NCBI GenBank assembly: GCA_938048455.1 | Contig: CALIUY010000046.1 | Location: forward strand, 1-55,929 | Direction: 5' to 3' | DNA: 55,929 nucleotides | From: an uncultured Desulfobacterales bacterium | GTDB taxonomy: Bacteria; Desulfobacterota; Desulfobacteria; Desulfobacterales; SpSt-501 | In this document: in pieces, positions 13,072-32,119 of the stretch | Layout of the letters: each line of letters opens with the position of its first letter | Numbering within the stretch: position 1 is the first letter of the stretch | Position numbers and translations under genes: made by a program | The notes under the pieces: generated by a model | What the model was told of the DNA's origin: nothing | What the model saw: the letters and a program-made list of their open reading frames with translations, nothing else | Databases searched by the model: none

Positions 13072-15020
13072 GTGTCCCGCAACGTCTACCTGAACATGAA
13101 AACCCTCGCCGAGGCGCGGCGGCTCGTCTGCGCGCGGCTCGGCCCCCTGGGAAACCTCGAGAGCGAAACCCTCCCCGTCCCCGAGGCCGTGGGGCGGGTG
13201 CTCGCCGAGCCGGTCTATGCCGCCCTCTCCTCGCCCGCCTACCCTGCGGCGGCGATGGACGGGATCGCCGTGCGCGCCGAGGCGACCTTCGGGGCGAGCG
13301 AGGGCCGCCCCCTGCGGCTCGTGCTGGGAAAGGAAGCCTTCTGGGTCAACACCGGAAACCCCCTCCCCGCGGGGACCGATGCGGTCATCATGGTCGAGCA
13401 GGTCCGCGTCGAAAACGACCGCGAGGCGCTGATCGAAGCCCCGGCCTTTCCCTGGCAGCACGTGCGAAAAGTGGGCGAGGACATCGTGGCGACCGAGCTG
13501 CTTTTTCCGAGCCGCCATCGCCTTACGCCCTACTGCGTCGGCGCCCTGCTCGCGGGCGGGGTGTTTCGCGTCCCGGTGTGGAAACGGCCCCGGGTCCGAA
13601 TCGTACCCACCGGCTCCGAGCTGCTCGACTGGCAGACGACGCCGCTCTCCGAGCTCCGTCCCGGACGGATCCTGGAGACCAACTCGTTTCTGCTCGAGGC
13701 GCTCCTCAACCAGGCCGGAGGCTCGGCCCGCCGCCGGCCGCCCGTCCCCGACGACCGCGCCCGGATCCGCCGCGAGATCGAAGCGGCCGCGGCCGAGGGC
13801 GACGATCTGGTGATGATTCTCGGCGGCTCCTCGGCCGGCTCCGAAGACCACGCGCGCGCGGTCATCGCCGAGGGCGGCGAGGTCCTGATTCACGGGGTGG
13901 CGATGATGCCCGGAAAGCCCGTCGTCGTCGGCCTCGTCGGCCGAACCCCCGTCTTCGGGATCCCCGGCTACCCGGTGTCGGCGATCCTCGCCTTCGAGGA
14001 GCTCGTCGTCCCCTTGCTCTGCGCCTGGCTCGGCCAGCCCGAGCCCGCGCGCGAAACGGTGACCGCGCTGCCCACCCGCAAAATCCCCTCGCGGCTCGGG
14101 ATCGAGGAGTTCGTGCGCCTCAAGTTGGGCGAGGTCGGCGGACGCGTGGTGGCGACCCCGCTGCCGCGGGCGGCCGGCTCGATCACCTCGATCACGGAGG
14201 CCGACGGCATTCTGCGCATCCCCCCCGGCACCGAAGGTGTGGCCGAAAACGAGCCCGTGCGGGTCGAGCTGCTGCGGCCCCGCGCGGAGCTGGCGCGTAC
14301 CCTCGTGGCGGTCGGCAGCCACGACAACACGCTCGATGTCCTGGCCGATCTCCTCAAGGCGGGCCCGGACCGCATTCACCTCTCCTCGAGCCACGTCGGC
14401 AGCCTGGGGGGGTTGATGGCCATCAAGCGCGGGGTCTGCCACCTCGCCGGGTGCCATCTGCTCGACCCGGCCGACGGTCGTTACAACGTTTCCTACATCC
14501 GCCGCTACCTGCCGGACCGGACGGTGCACCTGGTCCATCTCGTGGAGCGCGAAAACGGCCTGATCGTCGCCCGCGGCAACCCGCGGGGCATCCGCGGGAT
14601 CGAAGACCTCACCCGGCCCGAGGTCTCCTTCGTCAACCGCCAGGCGGGCTCGGGGACGCGCATCCTGCTCGACTGGCGCCTCGCCCAGCTCGGCATCGAT
14701 CCGGCGGCCATCCGGGGCTATGGAAACGAGGAGTTCACCCACATGGCGGTCGCGGTTGCGGTGGCAAGCGGAGCGGCCGACGCGGGGTTGGGGATTTACG
14801 CCGCCGCCCGGGCGCTCGGGCTGGATTTCATTCCCGTCGTCACCGAAAGCTACGAACTGGTGATTCCTTCGGAGCAGCGGGAGGCGCTTCCCGTGCGGGC
14901 GCTGCTCGAGGTGATCGCCTCGGCCGAGTTCCGCCGTCGCGTGGAAGCCCTGGGGGGCTACCATACCGCGCGCACGGGGCAGGAGCACACGATCGGCCCC
15001 GGCGGCTTCTGCCCGGGAAA

Positions 15021-15024
<4 letters not shown>
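13072..15024 (+). CDS. MoeA fused to a periplasmic-binding-protein-like domain
   Basis: A 650-residue two-part protein. Residues 1-400 are a complete MoeA (YPAAAMDGIAVRA, GNPLPAGTDAVIMVEQV, IVPTGSELLDW, GGSSAGSEDH, PGKPVVVGLVGRTPVFGIPGYPVSA). Residues 410-650 form a type-2 periplasmic-binding fold like that of ModE-associated or LysR-type ligand domains: VAVGSHDNTLDVLADLL, HVGSLGGLMAIKRG, then FVNRQAGSGTRILLDW, which usually contacts an oxyanion, and AVASGAADAGLGIYAAA. No signal peptide precedes it, so the binding domain is cytoplasmic. The start is GTG with GGAGG 13 bases upstream. This fusion is known in archaea and anaerobic bacteria. A role in supplying or sensing tungstate or molybdate for a specific cofactor is inference. 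Confidence 0.92.
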
Positions 15025-17450: not shown

Positions 17451-18779
17451 ATGCCTCGTTCCGTGATCGCCGCCCTCCTGGGAGCGGCGCTGCTGGCGGC
17501 CGTGCCGGCCGCCTTGGCCCAGCCTCCGGATACCCCCCTCACCTTGCGGGAAGTCGTCGAGCTCGCGCTGCAGGCGAACCTCGCCTTGAAGCGTTCCGCC
17601 GAAGAGATCCTCGCCGCCGAGGCCCAGCGGCGGGTCAGCCTCTCCCGTTTTCTGCCCTCGCTCGGGATGAGCTACAACGCCGTGCACCGCAACCGGGAAC
17701 GGGTCTCGGTCAGCCCGCTCACGGGCCGGGAGGTCGTCAGCCTCCCCGAGGACCAGTACACGTTCACGACCAGCCTCACCCAGCCCCTCTTCACCGGTTT
17801 CGGGCTGATCCAGGAATATCGCCTGGCGGAGCTCGGCTTCGACCGCGCCGAGGTCGCCCTCAAGCTCGCCCGGCAGGACGTCATCCTCGACGCCCAGAGC
17901 GCCTTCTTTCAGGTCCTCAAAACCCAGCAACTCCTCGAAGTGGCCCGGCAGACGGTCGCCTCGATCGCCGCCCAGCGCGACGTGGCCGAGAATTTCCACC
18001 GCGTGGGGCTCACCCCGCTGAACGACCTGCTGCAGAGCGAGGTCCAGCTCGCCAACGCCAAGCAGCAGCTCACGAGCGCCCAGAACGACCTCGACATCGC
18101 CCGCGCCCGGTTCAACACGCTGCTCCGGCGTCCGGTCGGAGCCGCGGTCCGGCTCGTCGAGGAGACGGAGTTCGCGCAATTGGACTGGCGGCTCGAGCAG
18201 TGCCTCGAGGAAGCCGCGAAGGGCCGCCTCGAGCTCGAGATCGCCGGCCTCGACATCGCCATCGCCGAGCGGCAGGTGCGCCTGACGGAAAAGGATTTCT
18301 ACCCCGCGATCAACCTCACCGGCGCCTACGTCCGCACGGGCGACCGCTGGGACGTGGACGGCGGCGAGGGGATCTCCGACGCGGCGGGATGGAACGTCCA
18401 GGCGACGGCCACCTGGGAGTTCTGGCAATGGGGACGCACGGCCTACGGGCGGCGCGAAAAGCTCGCCCGGCTTTCGCAGTCCAAACTGCGGAAAACCGAA
18501 ATCGAGGACGCCATCCGTCTCGAGGTCCAGCAGGCGTACCTGAAGGCGCGCGAAGCCGAGCAGAACATCGCCACCGTCGAGCGGGCGGTGGCGCAGGCGA
18601 AGGAAAACCTGCGCATCACCGAGGAGCAGTACCGCGAGCAGGTCGCCACCCAGACCGATGTCCTCGTCGCGCGCACGCTGCTGACGCAAACCGAGACGAA
18701 CTACACCAACGCGCTCTACGACTTCAAGATCGCCAAAGCCATTCTTTTCCGGGCCATGGGCCGCAACCCCTTCGAGTGA
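17451..18779 (+). CDS. TolC-family outer membrane efflux protein
   Basis: Outer-membrane channel of the TolC/OEP family, 442 residues. A signal peptide covers about residues 1-23 (hydrophobic VIAALLGAALLAAVPAALA, cleaved before QPPD). Two related halves of long alpha-helical repeats follow. The first contains LTLREVVELALQANLALKRS and FTTSLTQPLFTGFGLIQEY; the second contains QATATWEFWQWGRTAYGRRE and the coiled helices EAEQNIATVERAVAQAKENL. The stop overlaps the ftsE start as TGATG, so this exporter is co-translated with a cell-division ABC protein, an arrangement I have not seen described as functional. No inner-membrane pump or membrane-fusion protein is adjacent. The partner could be the FtsEX complex itself or a pump elsewhere. 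Confidence 0.92.
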   Translation: MPRSVIAALLGAALLAAVPAALAQPPDTPLTLREVVELALQANLALKRSAEEILAAEAQRRVSLSRFLPSLGMSYNAVHRNRERVSVSPLTGREVVSLPEDQYTFTTSLTQPLFTGFGLIQEYRLAELGFDRAEVALKLARQDVILDAQSAFFQVLKTQQLLEVARQTVASIAAQRDVAENFHRVGLTPLNDLLQSEVQLANAKQQLTSAQNDLDIARARFNTLLRRPVGAAVRLVEETEFAQLDWRLEQCLEEAAKGRLELEIAGLDIAIAERQVRLTEKDFYPAINLTGAYVRTGDRWDVDGGEGISDAAGWNVQATATWEFWQWGRTAYGRREKLARLSQSKLRKTEIEDAIRLEVQQAYLKAREAEQNIATVERAVAQAKENLRITEEQYREQVATQTDVLVARTLLTQTETNYTNALYDFKIAKAILFRAMGRNPFE

Positions 18780-19462
18780 TGGCACCCCCGGCGGAGCCCC
18801 CCCTGATCCGCCTCCGCGGCGTCAGCGTCTTCTACGGCAACCGCCCGGCGCTCGAGGAGCTCGATCTCGAGGTCGGAAAAAACGAGCGCCTCTGGATCAC
18901 CGGGCCGAGCGGAGCGGGCAAAACCACGCTCTTGCGCCTGCTCTGCGGCGCCGTCCGCGCCGCCCGGGGGGAAGTGGAAGTCGACGGGGTGCGGCTGGAC
19001 CGCGCCGGCCGGCGGGATCTCGAACGGCTGCGCCGCCGCCTGGGGATCGTCTTCCAGGATCCGCGGCTGATCGCCGGTTTCACCCTGCACGAGAACCTCG
19101 TCCTCGGGCTCGAGGCCTGCGGCGAGCGCCCCGAGCGGATGGGGCCGAAAATCGAGCGCATGCTGGCCCGGGTCGGTCTCGCCGGGCGCGGCGCCTCCTT
19201 TCCTACCGCCCTCTCCGGAGGGGAACAGCAGCGCGCGGCGGTCGCCCGCGCGCTCGTGCGCGAGCCCCGCCTCCTGCTGGCCGACGAGCCGACGGGAAAC
19301 CTGGACCCGGCCTCCGCCCGCGCCGTGGCCGAGCTTCTCGAAGAGGCCTGGATCCGGGGGGCGACGCTGCTGATCGCCACCCACGACCCGGAACTCGCCG
19401 CCCGGCCGGGCGGCAGGCTGCTGCGCCTCAAGCGCGGCCGGATCGCCGTGGAGGCCCCATGA
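18779..19462 (+). CDS. ftsE: Cell division ABC transporter ATP-binding protein FtsE
   Basis: ATPase that powers conformational changes in FtsX to switch on septal peptidoglycan hydrolases. The 227 residues hold Walker A GPSGAGKTT (about 42-50), a Q-loop in IVFQDPRLI, the signature LSGGEQQRAAVARALV and Walker B LLLADEPTGNLD followed by the H-loop in IATHDPEL. The FQDPRLI and DEPTGNLD forms are typical of FtsE rather than of metabolite importers. Its ATG overlaps the tolC stop, and its own stop overlaps the start of the ftsX-envC gene by four bases. This places it in the usual ftsE-ftsX order. Confidence 0.93.
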   Translation: MAPPAEPPLIRLRGVSVFYGNRPALEELDLEVGKNERLWITGPSGAGKTTLLRLLCGAVRAARGEVEVDGVRLDRAGRRDLERLRRRLGIVFQDPRLIAGFTLHENLVLGLEACGERPERMGPKIERMLARVGLAGRGASFPTALSGGEQQRAAVARALVREPRLLLADEPTGNLDPASARAVAELLEEAWIRGATLLIATHDPELAARPGGRLLRLKRGRIAVEAP

Positions 19463-21495
19463 CGCCCGGCTCGCTCCGGCGCCTGGCCGCCGACCTGCGC
19501 GCCCACCGGCTGCTGCACGCGGTGACCGTGCTCACGGTGACGCTGGCCACGCTGATCTCGGGGGCGACTTGGCTGGCCGCCTCGCAGGCGAAAGCGGCGC
19601 TCGAGGTCTGGCGCCGGGAAACGCGGATCCTCGTCTACCTCCGCCCGCTCCCTCCCGAAGACCGGGTCGGCCTTCAGGTCGGGCTGGAGGCGCTCGGGGG
19701 CGTCCGTGCCGTGACCTTCCTGCCCCGCGAGGAGGCCTATCGCGAACTCCAGGGTTTCTATCCGCACCTGGCGCTCCTCTTCGATCCCCTCGAGGATCCC
19801 CCCCTGCCCGACGCCTTCGAGGTGGAGCCCCGGGAAACCGCCCTCGCTGCGGTCGAGCGGCTGGCGGAGGCGATCCGCGCTCTGCCGGAGGTCGAGGAAG
19901 TCGCCTATGGCCGGCGCCGGCTCGAAGCTCTGCAGGCGTTTGTCGATTTTCTGCAAAGCGGCGGCCTTCTGCTGCTCGGCCTGTCGTTTCTCACCGCCGC
20001 CTCCATGGTCGCGGCGACGACCCGGCTCGTGCTCCACGCCCGCCGCGAGGAGATCGAGCTCCTCGATCTCTTCGGCGCAGGTCCCGTCCTGCTCCACGGG
20101 CGCTTCCTGCTGGGCGGTGTGCTCCACGGGCTCGCCGGCGGCCTGCTGGGCTTGGGTTCGTTGCGGCTGCTCTACGACGCCCTCCTGCCGGCCGCCGAAG
20201 GGCTCGCCCGGGCGGCGGGGCTCACGCTGCGGTTTTTCTCGCCGGTCGAATCCGCAGCTATGGTTGTCGGCGCCGTCCTCGTCGGGGCGATCGGCGCCGT
20301 CTGCCCCCTGCGGCGGGCGCGCGTCGCGGTGCTTCTGGCGCTCGCCGCGGGGATCCTCGCCGCGGCCCAGACGCCGACGTCGGCCGCCGGGGATCCGCAG
20401 CCCGTCCCCCTCGAACGCGAGGCCGAAGTGCTGCGTCGGGAACAGCGGGAACTCGAAGCCGACCTCGAGCGGCTGGAGCGCCGCGAGACCGACCTCGCGG
20501 CCGGCCTCGAACGGGCGGCCCGGGAGCTCGGCGAAGCCCGCCGGCGCGTCGCGGCCGCCCGGGCGGATCACGAGGTCCTCGAGCACCGTCTGCGCCTGCT
20601 CGAGGAGGCGCGCGAGGATCTCGGCCGACGCCTCGGGGCGTTGCAGCGGGAGCTTTTCCGGCGCCTGCGGGCGCTCTACGGGCTCAACCGACTGGGGGCC
20701 GGAGCGGCCGGCGGCCCGCACGCCCTGTCTCCCGCCGGGGTCGTACGCGCCGAGGCGGGACTCGCGCGGCTTCTCGCGCACGACGCCCGGCTGCTCGCCA
20801 TGCTTCGGGCGGACGCCGAGGCGCTCGCCGCCCTGGAGGCTGAAATCGCCGCCGCAAGCGAGCGGTTGCGGAGGAACCTCGTGCGGACCGAGCAGGAAGT
20901 CCGCGCCCTCGAGCAGGCCGCCGCCGCGCGCGAGCGGCTGCTCACGAAGATCCGCGGCGACCGCGACGCCCGCCGCATCGCCGCCGTGCGGCTCGGGGAG
21001 GCAAGCGGGCGGCTCGAGGAAGAGATCCGCCGCCGCGCCGCCGGCCGGGCTTCCGGGCAGGAGCTCTCCCCCCGTTTCCCCGGGCCGCCGCTGTCGGAAG
21101 CAAAGGGCTTGCTTCTCTTTCCGCTTCAGGGTAGCATCAATCACTGGCGCATTCTGCCGCCGCGACCGGGGTTCGCCTCCGCCGAATCTCCTCAGGGAAT
21201 CGAAATCGCCGCTGCGCGCGGCGAGCCGGTCCGGGCCGTGCACGACGGCGTCGTCCTCTTCGCCGACTGGTTCGGCGGTTACGGCAACATGATCATCATC
21301 GACCACGGGGATCACTTCTACTCCCTCTACGCCCACCTCGAAGACCTCTTCACCGCCCCGGATCGCCCCCTTGCGGCCGGCGACGTCATCGCCACCGTCG
21401 GCGATTCGGGCGTCCTGGGGGGAAGCAGCCTGTACTTCGAACTGCGGCATCGCGAGCGGAGTCTCGACCCCCTGGAATGGTTCCCGCGGCAGTAA
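19459..21495 (+). CDS. FtsX-EnvC fusion: division ABC membrane protein joined to a LytM amidase activator
   Basis: One uninterrupted frame of 678 residues encodes two proteins that are normally separate. Residues 1-288 are FtsX: helix 1 at about 20-42, a periplasmic domain (50-165), then helices at about 168-190, 214-238 and 262-284. Without a stop the frame continues through RRARVAVLLALAAGILAAAQTP (285-306), which has the shape of a signal peptide. A long coiled coil follows (about 315-530, Glu/Arg/Leu-rich), then a LytM domain (about 549-678). That domain has lost the zinc ligands (QGIEIAAARG, SSLYFELR), as in EnvC, which activates amidases instead of cutting. The signal-like helix would serve as a fifth transmembrane helix and put the EnvC part in the periplasm, or could be cleaved. 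There is no ribosome-binding site for a separate EnvC. Confidence 0.9.
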   Translation: MTPGSLRRLAADLRAHRLLHAVTVLTVTLATLISGATWLAASQAKAALEVWRRETRILVYLRPLPPEDRVGLQVGLEALGGVRAVTFLPREEAYRELQGFYPHLALLFDPLEDPPLPDAFEVEPRETALAAVERLAEAIRALPEVEEVAYGRRRLEALQAFVDFLQSGGLLLLGLSFLTAASMVAATTRLVLHARREEIELLDLFGAGPVLLHGRFLLGGVLHGLAGGLLGLGSLRLLYDALLPAAEGLARAAGLTLRFFSPVESAAMVVGAVLVGAIGAVCPLRRARVAVLLALAAGILAAAQTPTSAAGDPQPVPLEREAEVLRREQRELEADLERLERRETDLAAGLERAARELGEARRRVAAARADHEVLEHRLRLLEEAREDLGRRLGALQRELFRRLRALYGLNRLGAGAAGGPHALSPAGVVRAEAGLARLLAHDARLLAMLRADAEALAALEAEIAAASERLRRNLVRTEQEVRALEQAAAARERLLTKIRGDRDARRIAAVRLGEASGRLEEEIRRRAAGRASGQELSPRFPGPPLSEAKGLLLFPLQGSINHWRILPPRPGFASAESPQGIEIAAARGEPVRAVHDGVVLFADWFGGYGNMIIIDHGDHFYSLYAHLEDLFTAPDRPLAAGDVIATVGDSGVLGGSSLYFELRHRERSLDPLEWFPRQ

Positions 21496-21544
21496 CCGGG
21501 AAAGCGTCCGGGGGCGGATCGCCCCCGGCAAGGAGCGGCCGACC

Positions 21545-22912
21545 ATGAAACCCAGGATTGCCCGACCCGTTCGCCTGTGGGTCATCATGCTGATCGCGCT
21601 CGCGGCCTGGATGGCGAGCGCCGCTTTTCAGCGCGCCGATTCCGCCGGCAAAGAGCAGCTCTACGAGCAGCTCAAGATCTTCTCCGATGTGCTCGAGCTG
21701 ATCCAGCGGGACTACGTCGACGAGGTCGATCCCAAGGATCTCATCCAGAAGGCCATCCAGGGGATGCTCCAGGGGCTCGATCCCCATTCCTCGCTGCTTC
21801 CCCCCGACGCCTACGAAGACCTCCAGATCGACACCAAGGGCAAGTTCACGGGGATCGGCATCCACATCACCCTGCAGAACGGCTTCGTCACCGTCATCTC
21901 CCCGATCGAGGACACCCCCGCCCACCGGGCGGGGATCGAGCCGGGCGACCGCATCATCAAGGTGAACGGCCAGCTCACGAAGGACCTGCGCGAGGCGGTC
22001 CGCCTGATGCGCGGGCCCAAAGGGTCCAAGGTCACCGTAACCATCCTGCGCGAAGGGGTGAAGAAGCCGATCGACTTCGAGATCACCCGCGACGAAATCC
22101 CGATCCTGAGCGTGAAGCATATCCTGCTCCGTCCCGGCTTCGGCTACGTGCGCATTTCCAACTTCACCGGGACGACGACCCAGGATTTCGAAAAAGCGCT
22201 CGAAAAGCTCGAGTCCTCGGAGCCGCCGCTCAAGGGCCTGATCCTCGATCTGCGCAACAACGGCGGCGGGCTGCTCAACCAGGCGATCAGCATCGCCGAC
22301 GAGTTCCTCGATCAGGGGACGATCGTGTCCATGAAGGGACGCGACAAACGCAACACCAAGGTCTTCAGCGCCACCGCCTCGCGCAACCCCCGCACCTACC
22401 CCATGGTGGTTCTGATCAACGGCGGCACCGCCAGCGCTTCGGAGATCGTGGCCGGCGCCCTCCAGGACCAGAAACGCGCCCTGATTTTGGGCACGACCTC
22501 CTTCGGCAAGGGCTCGGTGCAGACCGTGGAGACGCTGCGCGACGGCTCCGGCGTCAAGCTGACCATCGCCCGCTATTACACCCCGAGCGGACGCTCGATC
22601 CAGGCCAAGGGCATCGAGCCCGACATCGTGCTCAAGTTCCGGCGTCTCGACGAGTCCGAGACCACCGGCGGCGAGGAGGGAACCGTCAAGGAGAAGGACC
22701 TCGAAAACCATCTCGCGGACGAAGGCGCCGCGCGCCCGCCGCGGCCGGAGAAGCCGCAGACGAAACCCGAGGACGACGCCAAAAAGCGCCTGAAAGAGGC
22801 CGAATCGCGGGTCGGGCCGCTCCAGGTGGAAGCCCTGCAAAACGACAACCAGATCATGCGGGCGCTCGAAATCCTGATCGGCCACGACGTGCTGCGCCAG
22901 GCCCGGCGCTGA
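21545..22912 (+). CDS. ctpA: S41 carboxy-terminal processing protease
   Basis: Periplasmic serine protease of 455 residues that trims cell-wall hydrolases or lipoproteins. A membrane anchor or signal sequence covers residues 9-28 (VRLWVIMLIALAAWMASAAF). A PDZ domain lies at about 96-180 (TGIGIHITLQNG, PAHRAGIEPGDRIIKVNG). The protease domain has the nucleophile block INGGTASASEI (291-301) and the catalytic Lys in TTSFGKGSVQT (318-327). The C-terminal tail is charged and ends with a helical segment (EALQNDNQIMRALEILIG), typical of delta-proteobacterial CtpA. The gene follows ftsX-envC by 49 bases and has the ribosome-binding site AAGGAG. In related bacteria this position next to envC is conserved, which suggests control of septal hydrolases. 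Confidence 0.94.
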   Translation: MKPRIARPVRLWVIMLIALAAWMASAAFQRADSAGKEQLYEQLKIFSDVLELIQRDYVDEVDPKDLIQKAIQGMLQGLDPHSSLLPPDAYEDLQIDTKGKFTGIGIHITLQNGFVTVISPIEDTPAHRAGIEPGDRIIKVNGQLTKDLREAVRLMRGPKGSKVTVTILREGVKKPIDFEITRDEIPILSVKHILLRPGFGYVRISNFTGTTTQDFEKALEKLESSEPPLKGLILDLRNNGGGLLNQAISIADEFLDQGTIVSMKGRDKRNTKVFSATASRNPRTYPMVVLINGGTASASEIVAGALQDQKRALILGTTSFGKGSVQTVETLRDGSGVKLTIARYYTPSGRSIQAKGIEPDIVLKFRRLDESETTGGEEGTVKEKDLENHLADEGAARPPRPEKPQTKPEDDAKKRLKEAESRVGPLQVEALQNDNQIMRALEILIGHDVLRQARR

Positions 22913-22921
22913 CCTCCGCTC

Positions 22922-23980
22922 ATGGCCTTGACGCCGTCCCCCTCGCGCCGGCGGCCGCGGCGAAAAAGACCCTCGCGGAGAAAGCCCTTCTCGCCCTGGT
23001 CGCGCCGACTGGGGTGGGCGGCTTGCTTTCTGGGATTGACGGCGGCCCTCCTCTGGGGGATGCACCGCTTGCTGGGTCCCCCCGCCGGGCCGCAAGGTTC
23101 CCCTCCGGCGCGGGCCCTCGCCCGGAGCATCCCACCGGCTTCCGCCTCCGGGTCGGCGCCGCCGGCGCCGACGCTCGGCGCTCCCGGCCGCAAGGCCCCC
23201 TCCGCTCCGGCACAGCCCAAAGCAAGCCCTCGGTCCCCGACCCCCGCCGAGGGGGAACTCCTCGCCGCGCTCCCGACCGTTCCGCCTCCGGAGGCGCCCG
23301 TTCCCCGCGGGCTTCCCCGAGTCGCTCTGATCATCGACGACATCGGCTACGATCGGCCGCTCGCCGAGAAGCTGATCGCCCTCGAGGCCCCGCTCACCTT
23401 CTCCGTGCTGCCTCACAGCCCGCACCAGAAGGCGCTCGCCCGCCTCGCCCACGAGCGGGGCCGCGAGATCCTGCTCCACCTGCCGATGGAGCCGCTCGAG
23501 TACCCGACGATCCAGCCGGGCCCGGGGGCGCTCTTGTCTTCGATGACGCCCGATCAACTCCTCGCGGAAGTCGAGCGGAACCTTCAAGCCGTGCCCTATG
23601 TCCGCGGGGTGAACAACCACATGGGCTCGCGCCTCACGGCCGATCCCGACCGCATGAACCAGGTCTTCTCCGCCCTGCGGCGGCACGGGCTCTTCTTCGT
23701 GGACAGCCGCACGACCGAGGAAAGCGCCTGCCTTGCGGCGGCGCGGCTTTTCCAGGTGCCCTTCGCTCGGCGGGACGTCTTTCTCGACCACCGACCCGAG
23801 CCCGAGTTCATCCGCCGCCAGCTGGCATCCCTCGTGCGCCTGGCTCGGCGCCAGGGCGAGGCGATTGCCATCGCCCACCCGCACCCGGCGACCTATGAGG
23901 TGCTGCGGGGGGAGCTGCCGCGGCTGAAAGCGGAGATCGAGTTCGTCCCCGCCTCACGACTGGTCCGGCTCATCGAGTAA
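22922..23980 (+). CDS. Divergent polysaccharide deacetylase (DUF610/YibQ family)
   Basis: Envelope protein of 352 residues. A basic N-terminus (RRRPRRKRPSRRK) precedes one transmembrane helix (about 31-48), and a Pro/Ala-rich linker of about 80 residues spans to the catalytic-type domain (about 130-350). That domain is the YibQ form of a NodB-like fold: VALIIDDIGYD with the metal Asp pair, FSVLPHSPH, LLHLPMEPLEYP, GVNNHMGSRLT, and a final AIAHPHPATYEVL. It follows ctpA by nine bases and closes the division cluster; tolC, ftsE, ftsX-envC, ctpA and this gene are probably one transcript. Its last 27 bases overlap the convergent FHA gene. The natural substrate of this family is unknown; sugars of the cell wall are likely. 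Confidence 0.9.
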   Translation: MALTPSPSRRRPRRKRPSRRKPFSPWSRRLGWAACFLGLTAALLWGMHRLLGPPAGPQGSPPARALARSIPPASASGSAPPAPTLGAPGRKAPSAPAQPKASPRSPTPAEGELLAALPTVPPPEAPVPRGLPRVALIIDDIGYDRPLAEKLIALEAPLTFSVLPHSPHQKALARLAHERGREILLHLPMEPLEYPTIQPGPGALLSSMTPDQLLAEVERNLQAVPYVRGVNNHMGSRLTADPDRMNQVFSALRRHGLFFVDSRTTEESACLAAARLFQVPFARRDVFLDHRPEPEFIRRQLASLVRLARRQGEAIAIAHPHPATYEVLRGELPRLKAEIEFVPASRLVRLIE

Positions 23981-29378: not shown

Positions 29379-31112
29379 ATGCGCCCGTACTTCGAGAAGA
29401 TGAAGGAGTTCGGCAGCCCCCTCAAGCCCGGTCTCGTCAAAAGCCGCGAAAAGAACGTGGAGCAGATTCGGGAAGTCGAAGACGAAATCGAACGGGAGGT
29501 GGAGCGCCTGAAAAACGTGGGCATCCCCGCCGCGGAGATCAACAAGCGCGGCCAGTGGACGGTGTGGCAGCGTCTGGAATACCTGGTCGACCCCGGAACC
29601 TGGAACCCGCTCAACACCCTCTACAACCCCTGCCGCAACGTCGAGGGCACCAACAACGTCGTCCACGGCCTGGCCAAGATCTCCGGCAAATGGGCCGTGG
29701 TCATCGGCTTCGACAACAAGGTGCTCGCCGGCGCGTGGCTTCCGGGCCAAGCCGAGGAGGTCTTCCGGGCGACCAACCTCTCCAAACGCCTGAACATCCC
29801 GCTCGTCTGGCTCGTCAACTGCAGCGGCGTGAAGCTGCCGGAACAGGAGAAGTTCTATGCCGACCGCCGCGGCTCGGGAACGACCTTTTTCCGGCACGCC
29901 GAGCTCGAAATCGCCGGGATTCCCATCCTGGCGGGCATCTACGGCACCAACCCCGCGGGCGGGGGCTATCAAGGCATCAGCCCGACCATCCTCTTCGCCC
30001 ACAAGGACGCCAACATCGCCGTCGGCGGGGGGGGAATCCTGAGCGGCATGTCGCCCAAGGGGTATTTCGACTTGGAGGGCGCCGAGCAGCTGATCGAGGC
30101 GGCACGGCAGTACAAGGCCGAGCCCCCCGGCTCGGTGAAAATCCACTATCACGAGACGGGCTTTTTCCGCTACGTCTACGACACCGAGCAGGGGGTGCTC
30201 GACGGCATCAAGGACTACATGAAGGACATGCCGGCCTACCACCCGAAATTCTTCCGCGTGGCCGAACCCCAAGAGCCGCGTTTTCCCTCCCAGGACCTCT
30301 ACTACCTGCTGCCCTTCAATCAGAAGCAGATGTACGATTTCGACGAGATCCTGGCCCGCCTCGTCGACGGCAGCGAGCACATGGAATACCGCCCGGGATA
30401 CGGTCCGGAGGTGTACACGGGCTTGGTGAAAATCGACGGCTTCCTGATCGGCGCCATCGGCAACCGCCAGGGTTTCCTGGGGGAGGACTACCCCGAGTAC
30501 GCCCCCTACGCCGGCATCGGCGGCAAGCTCTACCGTCAAGGCTTGATCAAGATGAACGAGTTCGTCGTCCACTGCGGCCGCGACCGGGTCCCCATCGTCT
30601 GGTTCCAGGACACGACCGGCATCGACGTGGGCGATCTCGCGGAGAAGGCGGAACTTCTGGGTCTGGGGCAGGCCCTGATCTATTCCATTCAGCAGACCGA
30701 CATCCCCATGATGCTCGTCGTGCTGCGCAAGGGCACCGCCGCCGCGCACTACATCATGGGCGGACCGACGGCCAACCGTCACAACGCCTTCACCCTCGGC
30801 ACGGCGACCACGGAAATCTACGTCATGCACGGCGAGACCGCGGCCGCGGCGAGCTATTCCCGACGGCTGCTCAAGGAAAAGCAAAGCGGCCGCCCGCTCG
30901 AGCCGGTGATCGAGGAAATGAACCGCCTGGTGCGCTCCTACTACGAGAACTCGCGCCCGCTTTACTGCGCACAGCACGGGCTGGTCGACGAGGTCGCCCG
31001 CCTGAGCGCGGTCCGCGGCTACCTGCAGGCATTCGCCGGCGCCGCCTACCAGAATCCGCGTTCGATCTGTCCGCACCATCAGATGATGCTGCCGCGCATC
31101 ATCAAGGGATGA
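29379..31112 (+). CDS. gcdA: Glutaconyl-CoA decarboxylase-type carboxyltransferase (alpha subunit)
   Basis: A 577-residue carboxyltransferase of the acyl-CoA carboxylase beta-subunit superfamily. The start MRPYFEKMKEFGSPLKPG, the early GQWTVWQRLEYLVDPGTWNPL block and the length match the alpha subunit of glutaconyl-CoA decarboxylase, which moves CO2 from glutaconyl-CoA onto biotin. Two crotonase-like halves are visible: the first with GISPTILFAHKDANIAVGGGG, the second with GLIKMNEFVVHC and the oxyanion-loop type PIVWFQDTTGIDVG, then AAHYIMGGPT. The ribosome-binding site is AAAAGGAG. In glutarate and benzoate degraders this enzyme turns glutaconyl-CoA into crotonyl-CoA. Here the membrane sodium-pump subunit is not nearby, so a carboxylase on a related acyl-CoA is an alternative. 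Confidence 0.85.
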   Translation: MRPYFEKMKEFGSPLKPGLVKSREKNVEQIREVEDEIEREVERLKNVGIPAAEINKRGQWTVWQRLEYLVDPGTWNPLNTLYNPCRNVEGTNNVVHGLAKISGKWAVVIGFDNKVLAGAWLPGQAEEVFRATNLSKRLNIPLVWLVNCSGVKLPEQEKFYADRRGSGTTFFRHAELEIAGIPILAGIYGTNPAGGGYQGISPTILFAHKDANIAVGGGGILSGMSPKGYFDLEGAEQLIEAARQYKAEPPGSVKIHYHETGFFRYVYDTEQGVLDGIKDYMKDMPAYHPKFFRVAEPQEPRFPSQDLYYLLPFNQKQMYDFDEILARLVDGSEHMEYRPGYGPEVYTGLVKIDGFLIGAIGNRQGFLGEDYPEYAPYAGIGGKLYRQGLIKMNEFVVHCGRDRVPIVWFQDTTGIDVGDLAEKAELLGLGQALIYSIQQTDIPMMLVVLRKGTAAAHYIMGGPTANRHNAFTLGTATTEIYVMHGETAAAASYSRRLLKEKQSGRPLEPVIEEMNRLVRSYYENSRPLYCAQHGLVDEVARLSAVRGYLQAFAGAAYQNPRSICPHHQMMLPRIIKG

Positions 31113-31180
31113 GCCAGACCGCCGGGGCGCCGCCGGCGGCGCCCCTTTACCGCCGGAAAAGGCATCCTTACGGTTCACGC

Positions 31181-32119
31181 ATGGACCGCCCGATCCGTTC
31201 GCTTTCCGCGCTCGTCGCGGCCTTTCTGGTCTTCTGCCTCGGTCTTGCCTCCGCCGCGCCGGCGGCGGGGCCCTCCGACCCGGACCCCGCTCCGCTGCGG
31301 ATCGTGCTCACCCCCGACGAGCCGCAGACCGGAGACGCGGTCCTGGTCGAGGTGGAGTGCCGCTCGGGCACCTCCTGCCCGCCGGACGTGCGCCTATCCT
31401 GGTCGGAGCAGGAAATACCCCTCTTTCCCCATCCTCTCCGGGGCCCCTCCTTCCGCGCCGGCCTGCTCGCCGTTCCGCTCTCCGCCCGGCCCGGGGAGGC
31501 CCTGCTGGAGGCGTCGTGGACGCTGTCGGAACGCCGCCGGGGCTTTCGTTTTCCGTTCCGGATCCGGCCGGGATCCTTCGCCGAAGAGGCGTTGCGTGTG
31601 GATCCGCGTCACGTGCGGCCTTCGGCGAAGGATCTTCAACGCATCCGGCGCGAGCGCGAGGAGCTCGAGCGCATCTATGCGGCGGGAGCCCCCGGGCCTC
31701 TCTGGGAGGGGGGGGGATTCTCGGTTCCGGTTCCCGGCGAGGTCAGCGGCGCTTTCGGAACCCGCCGCCTCTTCAACGGCGAGCTGGTCAGCCGCCACAA
31801 CGGGGTCGATTTCCGCGCCGCGAGCGGCGATCCCGTCGCCGTCGCCGGCTCGGGCGTCGTACGGTTGGGAAAAGAGCTCTTTTATTCCGGAAACGCGGTC
31901 ATCGTCGACCACGGCGCCGGGGTCTTCACCTCTTACTCGCATCTGAGCCGGATCGAGGTCACCCCCGGCCAACGGGTGGCCCGCAACGAAATTCTCGGCA
32001 GGGTGGGGGCTACGGGTCGCGCGACGGGGCCGCATCTGCACTGGGGAGTGAAGCTGAACGGGGTTTCCGTCAACCCGATCGTTTTCTTGGAAGCGACGGC
32101 GCGCCTGGCGGGGAAATGA
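31181..32119 (+). CDS. M23-family (LytM) peptidoglycan endopeptidase
   Basis: Secreted cell-wall hydrolase of 312 residues. A signal peptide covers residues 1-29 (LSALVAAFLVFCLGLASAAPAAG). Residues 30-130 form a beta-rich domain (LTPDEPQTGDAVLVEVE, SWSEQEIPLF), probably Ig-like and used for targeting. A short helix follows (LQRIRREREELERIYAAG), then an active LytM domain (about 185-312) with the zinc His and Asp in SRHNGVDFRA and the HxH pair in GPHLHWGV. All metal ligands are present, unlike the EnvC part of the FtsX fusion. The start at 31181 fits the signal peptide; an ATG at 31109, overlapping the stop of the carboxyltransferase gene, would add 24 residues and hide it. It probably depends on the upstream promoter. 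Confidence 0.9.
   Translation: MDRPIRSLSALVAAFLVFCLGLASAAPAAGPSDPDPAPLRIVLTPDEPQTGDAVLVEVECRSGTSCPPDVRLSWSEQEIPLFPHPLRGPSFRAGLLAVPLSARPGEALLEASWTLSERRRGFRFPFRIRPGSFAEEALRVDPRHVRPSAKDLQRIRREREELERIYAAGAPGPLWEGGGFSVPVPGEVSGAFGTRRLFNGELVSRHNGVDFRAASGDPVAVAGSGVVRLGKELFYSGNAVIVDHGAGVFTSYSHLSRIEVTPGQRVARNEILGRVGATGRATGPHLHWGVKLNGVSVNPIVFLEATARLAGK

Follow-up and report, generated by a model that had tools for sequence, protein, structure and literature searches.

The stretch of DNA analysed here (the window) comprises the 55,929 nucleotides of contig CALIUY010000046.1 (assembly GCA_938048455.1) from an uncultured Desulfobacterales bacterium, and it carries on its forward strand, at 19459-21495, a gene of 678 codons that joins the division proteins FtsX and EnvC in one chain. 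A single frame runs stop-free across all 678 codons. An open frame by itself is little proof, because long frames arise by chance in DNA as GC-rich as this; an antisense open frame of 918 amino acids (18832-21588, reverse strand), which covers both ftsE and the fusion gene, is probably a chance product of this kind. The fusion is accepted because both halves are homologous to known proteins within the one frame and because the arrangement is kept, at 69% identity, in a second species: FtsX-type and EnvC-type proteins are genuinely encoded as one translational fusion. The leading NCBIfam matches of the protein are FtsX TIGR00439 (156 bits) and EnvC NF008644 (86.4 bits); as both scores lie under the curated cut-offs (255 and 270 bits, respectively), we refer to the halves as FtsX-type and EnvC-type but divergent. 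In a PDB sequence search FtsX chains were best for the N-terminal half and EnvC chains for the C-terminal half. The AlphaFold model of the whole protein (mean predicted local distance difference test score, pLDDT, 71.6) displays the FtsX helices and extracellular domain (ECD) fold, a two-helix hairpin and a LytM domain, with pLDDT under 50 at residues 285-323, between the last FtsX helix and the hairpin; a fold search with this model again placed FtsX chains at the top of the PDB matches. An earlier note, made from the sequence alone, had read the frame as FtsX (residues 1-288) followed by a coiled coil and a zinc-less LytM domain of the EnvC kind, and Pfam, AlphaFold and the PDB matches bear this out.

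The FtsX half (residues 1-288; 19459-20322, forward strand) was delimited by Pfam, AlphaFold and its best PDB fold matches, which are FtsX chains. FtsX_ECD (PF18075) was recognized at residues 65-148 with 40.1 bits (48.4 in the second fused protein, described below), above its cut-off of 23.5, and the FtsX permease C-terminus (PF02687) at residues 171-288 with 24.9 bits (22.1 in the second protein), both below the cut-off of 25.5. The model resembles solved FtsX structures, with 8ymc_C as the top Foldseek match (E 4.1e-14, template modelling score 0.77 by target), and its final FtsX helix spans residues 262-284. TIGR00439 matches 137 of the 147 genomes of a class sample and reaches its cut-off in 104 of them, which the fused FtsX (156 bits in the window, 163 bits in the second protein) does not, so that it must be considered divergent. 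Each of the two genomes with the fusion has one TIGR00439 match at E 1e-15, and thus a second FtsX is absent at that threshold.

The EnvC half, modelled alone with a mean pLDDT of 85.1, consists of helix I (residues 317-411; 20407-20691), a hinge (412-424; 20692-20730) that by homology is the predicted FtsX-docking tip, helix II (425-532; 20731-21054) and a degenerate LytM domain (548-678; 21100-21492), all on the forward strand; the LytM domain, assigned through NCBIfam, Pfam and PDB matches, is a predicted amidase activator. Pfam places Peptidase_M23/LytM at residues 579-671 with 90.8 bits. The hairpin-plus-LytM fold was recovered in comparisons with EnvC of Vibrio cholerae, the top fold match of this half (8tzl_E; Z 19.7 over 262 residues, root-mean-square deviation 26.4, the parts having moved relative to each other) and of E. 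coli (6tpi_A; Z 14.4, deviation 28.3). The LytM part alone gave Z 17.9 with E. coli EnvC, on a par with other M23 folds, among them Csd3 (17.4). The three positions that we take, from LytM, to be the zinc-ligand positions read by eye Pro578, Glu582 and Tyr659; the domain thus lacks the usual zinc ligands, with Glu582 still acidic. Neither fused EnvC half matched Pfam CC_PcsB, not even at E 1, and 29 of 49 unfused relatives match it at E 0.01; since the family is also missing in two of four scanned congeners, its loss at the hairpin tip was dropped as a mark of fusion. In two unfused EnvC-type proteins of the order (L068:1895-3349 in genome G060, 47.3 bits; L038:2868-4334 in G043, 37.0 bits) the coiled coil is preceded by a bacterial SH3 domain (Pfam SH3_3), a domain that Pfam did not find in either fused protein.

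Between the two halves lie a 15-residue apolar core (residues 289-303; 20323-20367, forward strand), delimited by hydrophobicity and codon comparison, which would be either a signal peptide inherited from EnvC or a fifth membrane helix, and a 13-residue linker (304-316; 20368-20406, forward strand) with Pro306 and the small residues 308-311. The signal-like helix that had been proposed at residues 285-306 encloses this core. Signal-peptidase sites follow the -3/-1 rule, and small residues follow the apolar core in both fused proteins; those of the linker form a predicted signal-peptidase site. The core, 15 residues in the window and 16 in the second protein, is preceded by a short basic tail; signal peptides of unfused EnvC have a median core of 14 residues (range 8-26; 42 measured among 49 relatives), and the longest apolar runs within the membrane helices of the fused proteins are 21-22 for TM1 and TM2, 18 for TM4 and just 12 for TM3. 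Between the two species the core codons changed at position 3 in 11 of 15 cases and at positions 1 and 2 in four each. Judged from these features, the joint is EnvC's former signal peptide.

The second species is the congener Desulfatibacillum sp. isolate Tomsk_70_44 (G003), a member of a genus that NCBI taxonomy places in Desulfobacterales. Among 58 genomes searched, that of the window (G000; 64 contigs, 96.52% complete) included, it encodes the same stop-free fusion in a chain of 682 amino acids, which aligns with that of the window through gaps in whole codons; the identities for FtsE, FtsX and EnvC are 78%, 71% and 67%. No stop was found near 20311-20340, where the earlier note had looked for a possible refutation of the joint, and its other test, that homologues might always be separate, is answered by the fused homologue of this congener.

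Several surveys, whose genome samples overlap and cover few phyla so that the counts are not additive, indicate that the fusion is rare. A whole-chain profile combined 14 rows, namely both fusions plus twelve adjacent ftsX/envC pairs that had been read through. Applied to 389 genomes of the order (the window's own included), it gave 18 spanning matches among those listed, 16 with stops and only G000 and G003 without, a count that omits same-frame pairs that did not chain. In the 16 genomes one to five stops separate the two same-frame genes, with a single stop in six. In a phylum sample of 395 genomes (E 1e-55) there were 16 spanning matches, 15 with stops (14 of these with a single one), leaving the window alone without. 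The P0001 search of 291 genomes of the order (E 1e-60) matched six, at full length only in G000 and G003. An FtsX profile found FtsX in 137 of 147 genomes of the class, with frames above 600 amino acids in G000 and G003 only, and in 113 of 198 genomes of the phylum, with such a frame in the window only; as frame lengths from genome searches may bridge stops, they were not relied on alone. Eight other candidates with long frames (G012, G025, G028, G043, G181, G060, G353 and G308) proved on inspection not to be fusions. Among the matches listed for 297 genomes from the phylum to which a Holophagaceae genome belongs, no row spanned both halves, a plasmid search gave no match, and the open-access literature searched yielded no report of a natural FtsX-EnvC fusion. 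Several same-frame pairs (L058-L066 and L111-L118, among others) stand one mutation short of fusion; the surveys still found only two fusions.

The fusion is also derived, as far as the gene arrangements and trees of relatives indicate. Because the genes are unfused in congeners and outgroups, the fusion would most simply have arisen once, from two genes. The two fused genomes group together in trees of TolC, FtsE, FtsX, EnvC and CtpA, inside a larger clade that also includes four unfused congeners. In the FtsX tree the fused pair joins G001 and G006 (support 0.886), and in the LytM and EnvC-N trees it falls, weakly supported, at other positions; as these trees disagree on the joining point, we make no claim about the nesting of the pair among its congeners. 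The loss of a stop codon, which had been offered as the origin of the fusion, is not borne out: because envC lies in a frame different from that of ftsX in four unfused congeners (G001, G002, G004 and G005), and in a fifth (G006) shares the frame of ftsX, from which one TGA and 10-14 codons separate it, an indel or deletion is as likely.

On the fused branch FtsE, FtsX and EnvC have evolved rapidly. The mean ratio of tree distance to outgroups, fused pair over four unfused congeners, is 1.77 for FtsE, 1.67 for FtsX and 1.41 for EnvC, against 1.16 and 1.14 for the adjoining controls TolC and CtpA. Tajima-type counts gave median chi-square values of 11.0 and 13.3 for FtsE, 8.9 and 6.9 for FtsX, and 7.4 and 4.8 for EnvC, compared with 0.5-1.9 for the controls, from triples that are not independent and of which single ones are as low as 0 for EnvC of G003. 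Because the accelerated FtsE is a separate protein, the change extends beyond the joint. Within EnvC, five of nine conserved hinge columns are altered in both fused proteins (one of nine in three congeners, four of nine in G001), as are 28-29 of 107 conserved LytM columns (11-21 in congeners), whereas the far part of helix I does not differ (7-8 of 21 altered in the fused proteins, 6-8 in the others). Within FtsX, alterations in the fused proteins as compared with five congeners amount to 8 of 19 columns against 2-5 in the X-lobe, 21 and 25 of 49 against 7-15 in TM3, extracellular loop (ECL) and TM4 taken together, and 17 and 12 of 34 against 5-11 in the N-terminus and TM1. This pattern is one of broad acceleration that includes the contact regions; it does not prove that a new interface exists. 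Base composition (0.68 in the window, 0.71-0.73 in G003 and 0.58-0.66 in four congeners) may contribute partly. The deacetylase gene, two genes downstream of the fusion, shows a milder drop (51-56% fused-unfused identity vs 59-65% among unfused, with 80% for one close pair) in a comparison that includes no outgroup.

The fusion gene sits in a conserved neighbourhood. Its first gene encodes a TolC-like outer-membrane efflux protein (17451-18779, forward strand; Pfam OEP, 216.8 bits) and is followed by ftsE (18779-19462, forward strand), the ABC ATPase partner of FtsX, which lies directly upstream of the fusion gene with an ATGA overlap. The best NCBIfam match of FtsE is TIGR02673 (219.2 bits, below the cut-off of 264.85); identified by their usual definitions, the Walker A, signature, Walker B and H-loop motifs are readable in both the window and G003. 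Downstream lie genes for a CtpA-like S41 protease (21545-22912, forward strand; Pfam Peptidase_S41, 203.1 bits) and a divergent polysaccharide deacetylase (22922-23980, forward strand; Pfam Polysacc_deac_2, 273.7 bits). The order from TolC to deacetylase is kept in G001, G002, G003, G004 and G005, and in the E. coli annotation yibQ, a gene with a deacetylase domain, comes after envC. The genome of the window encodes one Amidase_3 protein at E 1e-10, of 716 amino acids, whose residues 332-700 align to E. coli AmiC. Farther away, a frame of 650 amino acids at 13072-15024 (forward strand) holds MoeA_N, MoCF_biosynth, MoeA_C and PBP_like domains, that is, MoeA fused to a PBP-like domain. A second M23 domain is encoded at 31793-32077 (forward strand), downstream of the fusion by about 10 kb, and G003 has a counterpart (G003:C30:31904); the frames compared with Pfam for it had no match and are probably the wrong ones, a longer open frame (29555-32119) also being present at this site.

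How the fused chain works depends on whether it is cut. We slightly favour a polyprotein from which signal peptidase I would release EnvC, the outcome that the earlier note had named as its alternative, a preference drawn from the makeup of the joint and from known complexes. In this scheme the gene yields one polypeptide, the FtsX part of which would insert through its four membrane helices and leave its basic C-terminal tail, PLRRAR, in the cytoplasm; the retained EnvC signal peptide would then take the EnvC half across the membrane, giving a coherent topology, in support of the correct topology claimed in the earlier note. Signal peptidase I, for which each of the two genomes has one gene, would cut near residue 310-311 and free a normal EnvC next to its own FtsEX complex, EnvC would dock between two FtsX periplasmic domains, and through the ATP cycle of FtsE the LytM domain would turn on the AmiC-like amidase. 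The alternative is a permanent tether, in which the signal peptide would now be a fifth membrane helix and each FtsX dimer would carry two EnvC arms docked in a changed manner, with the hinge facing away from the membrane or with a single arm engaged. It agrees with the hydrophobicity of the segment, which lies within the membrane-helix range, with the altered hinge and FtsX contact zones of both fused proteins, with the acceleration of FtsE, FtsX and EnvC, and with the lack of CC_PcsB in the fused EnvC halves, a lack shared with half of the congeners scanned. The core is, however, shorter than TM1, TM2 and TM4 of the same protein, and the changes are scattered across the module, not restricted to an interface. 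At a rise of 1.5 Å per residue in a helix and 3.5 Å in an extended chain, the 95 residues of helix I measure about 142 Å and the 13-residue linker at most about 46 Å, so that in the known orientation the linker could not bridge helix I unless part of it were unwound. The solved E. coli complex contains two FtsX and one EnvC (PMC7668044; PMC11139282), as does that of Pseudomonas aeruginosa, in which the hinge of the EnvC hairpin touches FtsX at TM1-3 (PMC11627006); in both, EnvC docks through its hinge, close to the membrane helices of FtsX. Because the hinge contacts FtsX, helix I starts at the far end from it, and an uncut EnvC in the known docking would, by this model, have to unwind about 20 residues, the linker being far shorter than the helix. 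A permanent fusion would, moreover, supply one EnvC too many, since the solved complexes have a single EnvC for every two FtsX (PMC7668044; PMC11627006; PMC11139282), which weakens the fixed 1:1 ratio that had been suggested as an advantage of the fusion. Cleavage is favoured slightly because these hinge-docked complexes fit poorly with a tether of 13 residues; a fifth membrane helix that stays in place is judged somewhat less likely.

Several observations weigh against cleavage. The geometry argument is awkward rather than absolute, because 21 residues at the N-terminus of E. coli EnvC are unpaired (PMC7668044), about the number that would need unwinding. Small-residue motifs come cheaply in alanine-rich sequence, the core also scores as a possible membrane helix (KD19 peaks of 1.78 and 1.94), and the length of the apolar run is no clean separator because the longest run of TM3 is only 12. 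The altered hinge of both fused proteins and the fast evolution of the module would also fit a tether that relaxes docking. Across the wider joint (38 codons, 280-317) the codon pattern is weaker, with 14, 11 and 20 changes at positions 1, 2 and 3, and CTG codons 284 and 295 of G003 are possible rare starts. A tether therefore keeps a sizeable, if minority, probability; the fuller proposal of a permanently tethered FtsEX-EnvC machine, with an uncut signal helix, two arms per FtsX dimer, a docking unlike that of E. coli and FtsE, FtsX and EnvC re-adapted together after the fusion, is possible but seems unlikely to us. It is improbable that EnvC is also, or mainly, made apart by internal initiation at GTG codon 291 (20329-20331, forward strand), which lies in the signal core of the window and is the sole in-frame ATG, GTG or TTG within codons 270-323: there is no Shine-Dalgarno-like motif in the 20 bases upstream, the codon is not conserved in G003, whose sole such codon within 270-335 is GTG 308, the final residue of its core, and in the absence of a stop codon the fusion would be made regardless. 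Because no ATG, GTG or TTG lies near the joint ahead of the signal core in G003, exported EnvC is there almost certainly derived from the fusion. A decaying module in which the fusion arose as a harmless accident would agree with the fast evolution of ftsE, ftsX and envC but is very improbable given the intact frames and readable FtsE ATPase motifs of both species, the identities kept between them and the lack of a second FtsX. Finally, although the assembly consists of 64 contigs, an assembly or sequencing error that removed a stop or shifted the frame is scarcely credible, as the same stop-free joint occurs in a different genome at 69% protein identity with whole-codon gaps.

Compared with the FtsEX-EnvC-amidase pathway of E. 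coli, P. aeruginosa and V. cholerae, the system shares an FtsE-type ATPase, the FtsX periplasmic domain, the EnvC hairpin with a degenerate LytM and an AmiC-like amidase, and its best PDB matches come from FtsX and EnvC of that pathway. It differs in that FtsX and EnvC form one polypeptide, whereas ftsX and envC of E. coli K-12 are separate and about 185 kb apart, and in the single EnvC per FtsX dimer of the solved E. coli and P. aeruginosa complexes, as noted above. Within the same order, congeners have the genes side by side in the order ftsE-ftsX-envC-ctpA, and in the 16 genomes with ftsX and envC in the same frame it is the intervening stops, none of which occurs in the fusion, that set them apart. 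FbcH, the cytochrome b-c1 precursor of Bradyrhizobium, likewise combines a membrane protein and an exported protein in a single chain that is cleaved at an internal signal peptide; it is, however, a respiratory enzyme with known cleavage, whereas that of FtsX-EnvC is predicted. FtsEX also drives coiled-coil partners outside the membrane in FtsEX-RipC (PMC11627006) and FtsEX-PcsB (PMC7668044), but those partners are hydrolases encoded as separate proteins, while here the LytM domain is poor in zinc ligands and the chain is fused.

The fusion is a natural, covalently joined form of a complex that is being studied for its stoichiometry and force path. If the chain were uncut, it would be a direct test of the 2:1 hinge-docked model; were the fuller tethered machine real, activation by way of the ATP cycle of FtsE would not require the solved 2:1 complex. 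If it were cut, it would represent a division polyprotein ensuring that EnvC arises beside FtsX. Either way the lineage constitutes a natural experiment: two proteins of one machine were joined, and on that branch three of its proteins accelerated.

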